NCBI GenBank assembly: GCA_001797815.1 | Contig: MGQK01000003.1 | Coordinates: 1 to 22,568 of the forward strand | Length of the DNA: 22,568 nt | DNA from: Deltaproteobacteria bacterium RBG_13_61_14 | Lineage (GTDB): Bacteria; RBG-13-61-14 | Reading direction: 5' to 3' | Shown here: positions 4,067 through 10,195 of the stretch, one piece after another | Layout of the letters: each line of letters opens with the position of its first letter | Position numbering within the stretch: the first letter of the stretch is position 1 | Program-made: the position numbers and the translations under genes | Notes under the pieces: model-generated | Seen by the model: only the letters and a program-made list of their open reading frames with translations | What the model was told of the DNA's origin: nothing | The model's database searches: none

Positions 4067-4810
4067 ATGCCGTCCTTGCATCCGAAAGCGGAAGCGTTGC
4101 TTCAAAAATTCAGCCACGAGCTGGAGCTGAAGCTCTTGGGCCAGCTCCGCAGCGTGGTGCTTTACGGCTCCGCCGCGGCCGGGACCTATGTTCCGGGCCA
4201 GTCGGACCTCAACTTCCTGATTGAGGTGGAGAAGGTGAGCGTCCAGGTGCTGGATGACCTGGCCCGGTTGGTCCAGCGCTATGCCGGCCAGGGTATCACC
4301 GCGCCCCTGGTGGTGGACCCCGAATACCTGCGCCGCTCGGCGGACGTGTTCGCCATCGAGTTCTCGGAGATGAAGGCCTATCATCGCGTGCTTTTTGGCT
4401 CGGACCCGCTTGAGGCAATTGAGATCAAACCCGAATATTTGCGGCTGCAGGCCGAGTCCGAGCTGAAGCAGAAACTCCTGCTGCTCCGCCGCCTCTACTT
4501 GACCGCGGCCGGCCACGGCAAAGACGAGGACCGGCTGTTGTTTCAATCCTTCAAGTCCTTCCTGGTCGTGACCCGGGCCTTGCTCCGGCATCTGGGCGAA
4601 GACCAGCTCTTGATCCCGCATGGCCAGTTGCTCGCCAAGATCGAGGCGCGGCTTCAGATCAAGCTGCCCAGTTTTCATCGGCTGGCCGAGGCCCGGGGCG
4701 GACCGCTGAAGCTGAAAGGGGATGAGCGGAAGCAACTGATCCGCGATTACCTGGAAGAGGTCGCGGATCTGGCCCGGGCGGTGGACCGGATGGGAGAGCC
4801 ATCGTCATGA
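4067..4810 (+). CDS. Nucleotidyltransferase-fold protein with an atypical SDLN active site
   Basis: This 247-residue protein has a pol-beta-type nucleotidyltransferase core in its first about 110 residues. LYGSAAAG gives the GS motif, and SDLNFLIEV follows where the paired metal-binding acids (SD-x-D/E) are expected, so the second acid is Asn here. The rest is helical, resembling the C-terminal helical domain of ANT-type or MNT-type enzymes, with Leu-rich and basic stretches. The natural substrate cannot be deduced. With one metal ligand replaced, it may bind rather than transfer nucleotides, or use a nearby acid such as VVDPE or FAIEF. The start follows an AAAGGAGGAGGG site. It lies 17 bases after the MaoC gene, and its stop overlaps the next start as ATGA. 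Confidence 0.75.
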   Translation: MPSLHPKAEALLQKFSHELELKLLGQLRSVVLYGSAAAGTYVPGQSDLNFLIEVEKVSVQVLDDLARLVQRYAGQGITAPLVVDPEYLRRSADVFAIEFSEMKAYHRVLFGSDPLEAIEIKPEYLRLQAESELKQKLLLLRRLYLTAAGHGKDEDRLLFQSFKSFLVVTRALLRHLGEDQLLIPHGQLLAKIEARLQIKLPSFHRLAEARGGPLKLKGDERKQLIRDYLEEVADLARAVDRMGEPSS

Positions 4811-8939: not shown

Positions 8940-8950
8940 GACCGCCTTTC

Positions 8951-8959
8951 ATTGTAGCA
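8951..8959 (-). promoter_or_regulatory. Candidate extended -10 element for the galactokinase gene
   Basis: The minus strand reads TGCTACAAT, an extended -10 box, ending 11 bases before the ATG. No good -35 is present at the right spacing. If it is used, the transcript would begin close to the start codon. Confidence 0.3.
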
Positions 8960-9001
8960 CACCCTCTGGCCCGGTTTCTTGCCAAGCTCGCCCGCTTTTG
9001 C

Positions 9002-9081
9002 TATTTTGGATTTTAGATTTTGGATTTTGGATTGGCAATGCTGAGAAAATCCCAAATCCGAAATCCCAAATCAAAAATCTT
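9002..9081. repeat. Second inverted pair of GATTTT-type heptad arrays
   Basis: The left arm (9002-9035) is tandem GATTTTG/GATTTTA heptamers. The right arm (9046-9081), read on the other strand, is GATTTTT, GATTTGG and GATTTCG heptamers. The arms are complementary with several mismatches. The array ends four bases before the PHP start codon. Confidence 0.8.
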
Positions 9082-9084
9082 CCC

Positions 9085-9969
9085 ATGATTGACCTCCACA
9101 TCCATACCACTGCCAGCTCGGACGGCCAGCACTCGCCCCGGGAAATTTTCGAGATGGCCCAGGCCCTCTCGCTCCGCGCCATCGCCTTTGCCGACCATAA
9201 CTCCGCGGACAGCCTGGCCGAGGGCGAGCGCCTCTCCGCACAGTTCGGCATCGCCTTCGTGCCCGGGATCGAGTTCGATACCGCCTTCCGCGACCGCGAC
9301 CTCCACTTGCTCGCCTATTTCCTCGACCATCGCTCGGCCGAGCTCAAGCGCTGGATCGCCCAAATCTTTCAGGCCAAGCTCGACCAGACCCGGAAACGGG
9401 TGCAGCGGCTTAATGCACTCGGCTTTGTCCTTGATTTTGACGAGCTGATGCAGGAATCCGGCGGCACGCTTCCCACCGGCAACACCTATGTCCGCGCCAT
9501 GTGGAAGCATCCGGAGAACCAGGACGATCCGCGGCTGCGCGCCTTCATTGACGGCCCGCGCTCGAACTCGCCCTTTCTCAACTTTTACCTGGACTACCTC
9601 CGCGCCGGCCAGCCCGCCTTCGTGCCCCTTTCGATCCAGGCCACCCCGGGTGCCATTCAAAAGATCCTGGGCCTGGCCGGCATCCCGGTCCTGGCCCACC
9701 CCTCCGACACGCCTCTCCCCGACGTCCACGCCTTGATTGACCTTGGGCTTCGCGGCCTGGAAGTTTATTCCAGCTATCACGATGCCGCGGCCACCGCGAA
9801 ATTTCTGGACCTGGCCCAAGCGCGGGGGGTGTTGATCACCGCCGGCTCGGACTTTCATGGCAAGAAAATCAAGCCGGACGTGGATCTGGCCGGGATCCCC
9901 GGCAACGAAGATGAGCTGTTCGAGCGGCTCTGCCAGGCCGCCGGCCGCTCTAGCTTCCGGCCTGGGTGA
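9085..9969 (+). CDS. PHP-domain phosphoesterase (RNase AM/YciV-like)
   Basis: The 294-residue protein is a PHP metal-dependent phosphoesterase. HIH at residues 5-7, ASSDG, ADH at 36-38, GIEF with Glu63, HLLAYF, VLAHPSD and GSDFHGKK give the usual His/Asp/Glu ligand set for a two- or three-metal centre. An inserted domain lies at about residues 105-185 (LPTGNTYVRAM). The closest characterised family is YciV/RNase AM and 3',5'-nucleoside bisphosphate phosphatases, which dephosphorylate pAp-type compounds or trim RNA 5' ends. This is a family-level inference. The ATG at 9085 is the only sensible start since MIDLHIHT is the conserved N-terminus, yet no Shine-Dalgarno lies before it, because the heptad repeat occupies that place. 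Confidence 0.88.
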   Translation: MIDLHIHTTASSDGQHSPREIFEMAQALSLRAIAFADHNSADSLAEGERLSAQFGIAFVPGIEFDTAFRDRDLHLLAYFLDHRSAELKRWIAQIFQAKLDQTRKRVQRLNALGFVLDFDELMQESGGTLPTGNTYVRAMWKHPENQDDPRLRAFIDGPRSNSPFLNFYLDYLRAGQPAFVPLSIQATPGAIQKILGLAGIPVLAHPSDTPLPDVHALIDLGLRGLEVYSSYHDAAATAKFLDLAQARGVLITAGSDFHGKKIKPDVDLAGIPGNEDELFERLCQAAGRSSFRPG

Positions 9970-9991
9970 TTTTCCGCACTTGGGTGATTAG

Positions 9992-10114
9992 CTAAGTCCT
10001 TCGATTCATAAGTTCGATGACGAACTTATTTACTCAGGACTTAGTGCTGAGTAAGCAAATAAGCATTTGCGAGAAAATAAATACCTCATTGTATTTGCGA
10101 ATCGAAGCACTAAG
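9992..10114. repeat. Compact AT-rich multi-hairpin element with terminal inverted repeats
   Basis: Ends 9992-10007 and 10099-10114 are inverted repeats (14 of 16). Inside are perfect stems at 10008-10029 (ATAAGTTCG, loop ATGA), 10030-10054 (TTACTCAG/CTGAGTAA), 10055-10070 (GCAAAT/ATTTGC) and about 10079-10096 (AAATAC/GTATTT). Alternative pairings exist: 9992-10000 with 10036-10044 and 10040-10048 with 10106-10114, each nine perfect pairs, so the two outer arms compete for the middle. It lies between two convergent genes and looks far poorer in GC than either. It has no ORF of its own. It could be a MITE, a recombination site or a structured RNA. Confidence 0.75.
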
Positions 10115-10147: not shown

Positions 10148-10195
10148 AAAAAACGACTCCTGTTTTATGATCCCGCCCTCCGGTCCTATCGTTTT
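10148..10195 (-). terminator. Weak terminator candidate after the ceramidase-like gene
   Basis: On the minus strand AAAACGA right at the stop codon can pair with TCGTTTT, followed by more T. The loop is over 30 bases, so the case is weak. Confidence 0.25.

Follow-up and report, generated by a model that had tools for sequence, protein, structure and literature searches.

Positions 9992-10114 of the window, by which we mean the whole 22,568-nucleotide stretch of DNA analysed, hold a 123-base segment with a GC content of 37%, against 62% across the whole window. The segment lies in a gap of 224 bases between two convergent genes. The sequence-only reading had given it these coordinates, which are correct, and had rightly described both its low GC content and its convergent neighbours. 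A direct repeat, TGGGTGATT, with its copies spaced 18 bases apart, occupies window positions 9963-9971, where the left-hand gene ends, and 9981-9989, just before the element. The true start of that gene probably lies downstream of 8803, and a second AT-rich dip (window 8940-9090) separates it from a galactokinase-like gene on the reverse strand. The features of the locus are the following.

Ends at 9969, forward strand: PHP-domain open reading frame (ORF), left neighbour of the element.
9993-9995, forward strand: left copy of the 3-bp target-site duplication, TAA within CTAAG (left/right TNA agreement across copies, p = 1.6e-13).
9996-10110, forward strand: body of the miniature element, about 115 nt (24 full-length and 2 partial own-genome copies that end at identical bases in unrelated flanks).
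9996-10007, forward strand: left terminal inverted repeat GTCCTTCGATTC, kept in all full-length own-genome copies.
10008-10029, forward strand: left subterminal hairpin H1, ATAAGTTCG-N4-CGAACTTAT (99% of cells paired; three pairs changed on both sides).
10030-10054, forward strand: middle hairpin M, with TTACTCAG/CTGAGTAA as stem and GACTTAGTG as loop (paired in 97% of cells; in other genomes the loop is 94% conserved).
10036-10048, forward strand: middle segment AGGACTTAGTGCT, a 13-mer that reverse-complements the right-end/left-end junction AGCAC-TAA-GTCCT exactly and can pair with either end.
10057-10077, forward strand: variable interior, including part of a third stem specific to the window (58% mean conservation outside the own genome).
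10079-10096, forward strand: right subterminal hairpin, AAATAC-N6-GTATTT (88% of cells paired in alignment A1).
10099-10110, forward strand: right terminal inverted repeat GAATCGAAGCAC, kept in nearly all full-length own-genome copies.
10111-10113, forward strand: right copy of the 3-bp target-site duplication, TAA (left/right TNA agreement).
Stop at 10194, reverse strand: ceramidase-domain (neutral-ceramidase) ORF, right neighbour of the element.

The terminal inverted repeats are 12 bp long and imperfect (GTCCTTCGATTC/GAATCGAAGCAC, also given as GTCCTTCGATTC/GTGCTTCGATTC), and the inverted outer arms, 9992-10035 and 10071-10114, are 75% complementary. The stem of H1 measures 9 bp. Two alternative 9-bp pairings, 9992-10000 with 10036-10044 and 10040-10048 with 10106-10114, are both present, which bears out the claim that the middle segment can pair with either end. 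Folded as RNA, the segment reached -43 kcal/mol, against a mean of -20.1 for shuffled sequences (z = -7.5; 0 of 200 shuffles as good), and its fold as DNA gave z = -8.3 against shuffled sequence.

Most of this structure is shared by the family. In alignment A1, which holds 34 copies, 95% of cells were paired in the outer stem, 99% in H1, 97% in the middle hairpin and 88% in the right-hand hairpin; the GTDB copies in A1 were seeded by the exact H1 pattern, and H1 conservation there is thus partly selection. Covariation was found in H1, where three pairs show compensatory changes on both sides in copies stemming from end-pattern searches rather than H1 seeding (L086, L098, L109 and L110), and in the outer stem, where one pair is doubly changed in two copies of genome G001. 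At one of these loci, L110 (12-115 and right flank), the flank on one side repeats the other almost identically in inverted orientation, which may reflect an assembly fold-back. The family has just four stems in common: the outer stem, H1, the middle hairpin and the right-hand hairpin. The third stem (10055-10070, GCAAAT/ATTTGC), which the sequence-only reading had counted among four perfect stems, is perfect in the window copy and imperfect in most sister copies; that part of the description does not extend to the family.

A BLAST-type search of the element's own genome (G000; 4.74 Mb, 95% complete) returned 34 matching pieces, which resolved into 24 full-length and 2 partial copies once they were read with their flanks. 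All full-length copies begin and end at identical bases, and their flanks share no general similarity, except for L024 and L039, which sit in a shared repeat, and a few copies in repeat-like sequence. By a rough ORF test, 23 of 24 copies are intergenic, and the copies occupy varied, unrelated intergenic contexts in both orientations. They include two interior subfamilies, and some carry a GC-rich hairpin of 28-80 bases inserted in the loop of H1 or of the middle hairpin. GC-rich hairpins of REP-like appearance (CCCTCGGCCATGAGCTCGGGCCGAATGG and variants) interrupt the middle hairpin at almost one and the same position in copies from different genomes (L037, L038, L039, L027, L028, L040 and L041, and also L047, L052, L059 and L068).

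The family extends well beyond this genome. In the GTDB contig collection, 25 stretches contain the motif AAGTTCG-N4..30-CGAACTTATTTAC. The majority come from deltaproteobacterial or Desulfobacterales metagenome-assembled genomes (MAGs), and Nitrospirae and NC10 are represented by a single MAG each; three stretches (Clostridia, Pyrinomonadaceae and Hyphomicrobiales) lack the element ends and look like chance matches. When 297 genomes from the phylum to which one host belongs were searched with a covariance model of 34 copies, 26 matched. Of two genomes in the same order as the window's, one held two copies and the other none. Searches of phages and plasmids by BLAST, and of IMG/VR with the family's own patterns, returned no copies. 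A sibling element with other ends (CTAAGTGCTCCATTTCATAAATACGG ... TATGAAATGACGTACTAAG) lies on the IMG/VR viral contig IMGVR_UViG_3300032173_000143 (L230). Copies in the same genome and relatives in Desulfobacterota, Nitrospirae and NC10 MAGs, both of which the sequence-only reading had proposed to look for, are thus at hand, and the family appears to be undescribed. The bodies parsed across copies range from 101 to 406 nt, the 406-nt case (L090) being a doubtful parse, and contain no transposase gene.

Every copy lies between direct repeats of TNA, set within a CTNAG target. Among copies outside the own genome, the first set, of 84 oriented copies, gave TAA on both sides in 32 cases, TTA on both sides in 14 and TAA against TTA in 4 (p = 1.4e-8). 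Adding 34 parsed copies raised the counts to 56, 18 and 4 mismatched (p = 1.6e-13), a tally in which a few copies entered twice via different loci with the outcome unchanged. Two further triplets flank single copies on both sides, TGA in NC10 and TCA in a deltaproteobacterium, with the left tip shifted by one base or changed. The next base outward was C on the left in 80 of 84 copies and G on the right in 75 of 84; no clear constraint was seen beyond, and the target is therefore CTNAG. In genomes with mixed triplets, the nearest relative carried the same TNA label in 18 of 35 cases, compared with a shuffled mean of 18.8. Because the triplet agrees left and right and does not follow the phylogeny of the element, it must come from the target at each insertion, and the TNA is a 3-bp target-site duplication at CTNAG, such as staggered-cut transposition would give. 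In one case, joining the flanks yields a site similar to a repeat unit that is found unbroken elsewhere and has CCAAG once; the empty-site search gave only short repeat-unit matches, 80-88% identical.

The agreement and non-inheritance of the TNA also bear on how the element integrates. Since they amount to a staggered-cut duplication, they leave the earlier suggestion of a recombination site folded as single-stranded DNA unsupported. A site-specific recombination cassette, integrated via a circle at a homologous CTNAG core by a tyrosine or serine recombinase, would fit an internal segment that exactly mirrors the circle junction over the shared core, as well as own-genome copies that all share TAA. 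Core exchange would, however, fix or segregate the TNA label, which is non-phylogenetic, and in one genome the close sister copies L065 and L069 carry TAA and TTA, with the triplets matched on each side. Core-homology recombination was rejected on the non-phylogenetic label, and we give the cassette only a very slight chance.

Dispersed copies in unrelated flanks, terminal inverted repeats, a target-site duplication and no internal transposase gene were all found, and the element is very probably a non-autonomous miniature transposon (MITE). The mobile-element proposal of the sequence-only reading is upheld by the many dispersed copies and the TNA duplication. Neither outcome that it had named as refuting arose, since further copies are numerous and H1 shows compensatory changes. 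We further considered that the locus might be a duplicated structured regulatory RNA or switch, to which the strong conserved fold, the compensatory changes in H1 and the two alternative pairings would be suited. A search of Rfam gave nothing at gathering thresholds, and scans of the element detected no promoter-like or terminator-like site. These results, together with the inverted ends, the target duplication and the many unrelated intergenic contexts in both orientations, make an RNA, including the switch once suggested, hardly credible. A GC-rich stem followed by a T run was likewise absent, consistent with the earlier view that the element is not a simple terminator.

For the MITE, we propose that a transposase acting in trans would recognise the 12-bp ends, probably together with sequences of the subterminal hairpins, and would excise or copy the element; insertion at CTNAG with a 3-bp stagger would then duplicate the TNA. 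Boundaries, inverted ends, TNA duplication, dispersal and conserved hairpins can be read directly from the sequences, whereas we infer that the mobilising enzyme would be a DDE transposase. Against this explanation stand the lack of an autonomous partner in the searches described below and a target bias: relative to element orientation, TAA is favoured over TTA by 56:18 outside the own genome (p = 1e-5) and by 23:0 among clean copies within it, and the ratio varies between genomes (p = 0.004). A simple symmetric target rule predicts neither the bias nor its difference between genomes.

The most unusual part of the element is its middle segment. Joining the right tip AGCAC to the left tip GTCCT across TAA gives a junction whose reverse complement is, base for base, the 13-mer at 10036-10048. 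Across the 34 aligned copies, all 13 positions match the junction in 18 and all ten end-tip positions in 21, and elsewhere in the copies the closest 13-mer agrees with the junction at 7 or 8 positions. Outside the own genome, the middle loop is 94% conserved, compared with 72% for the H1 loop, 77% for the right-hand loop and 58% for the interior. The layout TAA-[GTCC...GGAC]-TTA-[GTGC...GCAC]-TAA amounts to two end units back to back. The first end unit occurs alone at L049 (about 2558-2612) and L051 (about 4246-4300), in two Desulfobacterales genomes; these half-elements stop at the middle CTTAG, and a truncated ORF with the start MARKSR follows closely downstream. Three pairs between the middle segment and the left end are doubly changed, a number reached by 1 of 500 shuffles, and two pairs with the right end, reached by 48 of 500; this covariation is suggestive at most. 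The competing folds of the sequence-only reading thus stand in so far as both pairings exist and are conserved; covariation lends them little weight, and the pairing is best described as reflecting an inverted copy, inside the element, of its joined ends. The middle hairpin may be left over from an event that joined two end units back to back, or it may offer the transposase or a fold an additional end-like site.

A different enzyme could be imagined to use the same pairing. In an element of the IS200/IS605 or REP-like type, which a Y1 (HUH) transposase would move in single-stranded form, the middle loop would act as a guide by pairing with both cleavage sites. Subterminal hairpins at both ends (H1 and the right hairpin), a middle segment complementary to both ends, 19 Y1_Tnp matches in the own genome and the bias towards TAA, to which the middle loop is complementary, agree with this proposal, as does the short ORF downstream of the half-elements in two genomes, whose MARKSR start resembles that of Y1/RAYT proteins. 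IS200/IS605 insertion creates no target duplication, however, whereas here the TNA occurs twice, once on each side, and does not travel with the element. Furthermore, the ends are inverted repeats, the covariation between middle loop and ends is weak, and no Y1_Tnp match was seen in G066, which holds about 15 or more copies, although it is a draft MAG. Given the distribution of Y1_Tnp and the target duplication, Y1/RAYT is unsupported as the mobiliser, and we regard this type of element as highly improbable.

Within the MITE reading, the middle loop could serve as a built-in guide. On an intermediate that is single-stranded or circular, it would pair with the joined ends, or with the cleaved left end and the CTNAG target, steering insertion towards TAA and setting orientation. 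We consider such a guide unlikely and retain it because the favoured triplet, TAA, is complementary to the middle loop.

The source of the transposase was sought through the element ends. End-pattern searches found no autonomous partner with matching ends in the own genome, where nearly all matches to the 16-mer end pattern with up to two mismatches were ends of known copies and the few leftover two-mismatch matches formed no partner pair, nor in three single-chromosome-contig genomes (G060-G062). No matching ends were found near 59 loci with Y1 or DDE transposase matches, and a looser end-plus-hairpin scan of 730 kb of retrieved DNA revealed no facing end pairs of an autonomous element. As regards an IS1031-type transposase, PF13586 is present in one of nine genomes, and none of the PF01609 loci has matching ends. 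A parent element is not known for every MITE, and the one for this family may lie outside the genomes searched. The IS1031 subgroup of the IS5 family has a 3-bp TNA target duplication (PMC12016507); because IS1031-group elements also duplicate TNA, an IS1031-like IS5-family enzyme is the leading, unproven candidate mobiliser.

A sibling family with the ends GTGCAGGGTTTCATAAAT was observed in the own genome, at L033 about 2134-2279 (G000:C16:39933-40078) and at G000:C130:34949-35094. The C16 sibling has CTAAG on both sides and lies head to tail with a degraded third relative and a copy of the window family. This sibling family and the distant relatives L212-L215 share the TNA flank, GTGC-type tips and mostly subterminal hairpins, and lack the middle hairpin.

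In its general form the family resembles bacterial MITEs such as Chunjie of Geobacter uraniireducens: short, gene-less and AT-rich, with inverted ends and direct repeats, tens of mainly intergenic copies, stable stem-loops and interior size variants (PMC10969869). Chunjie-1 measures 235 bp (review PMC10969869), compared with about 115 nt here, and our family is set apart by the conserved internal inverted copy of its joined ends and by the lack of a parent insertion sequence (IS) in the searches above. It shares the 3-bp TNA target duplication with the IS1031 subgroup (PMC12016507), yet the published end of that group, GAACCTGTCTAGTATCT, is unlike the element end, GTSCTTCGATTC, the window element has no coding sequence, and no IS1031-type IS with ends of the window family was found. 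REP/BIME elements with RAYT (Y1) transposases are similar in their hairpins, tens of intergenic copies and Y1_Tnp genes in the own genome; the window family differs in its target duplication, its terminal inverted repeats and its abundance in a genome without a Y1_Tnp match. Eukaryotic Tourist MITEs and PIF-Harbinger elements are comparable in miniature size and 3-bp target duplication (PMC2213677), whereas the window family has a bacterial host and unrelated ends.

The family is thus a MITE of an ordinary kind, unusual in its conserved internal junction copy. We know of no described MITE with a conserved internal hairpin whose loop exactly complements the joined ends of the element itself. 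Since no transposase was found, the enzyme that moves the family may be distant or lost. The internal junction copy makes the role of DNA folding and end pairing in MITE movement directly testable, and the preference for TAA over TTA offers a second handle on the mechanism. Should the guide reading hold, it would represent a mode of self-guided transposition in a target-duplicating element, which to our knowledge is undescribed for elements of this kind.
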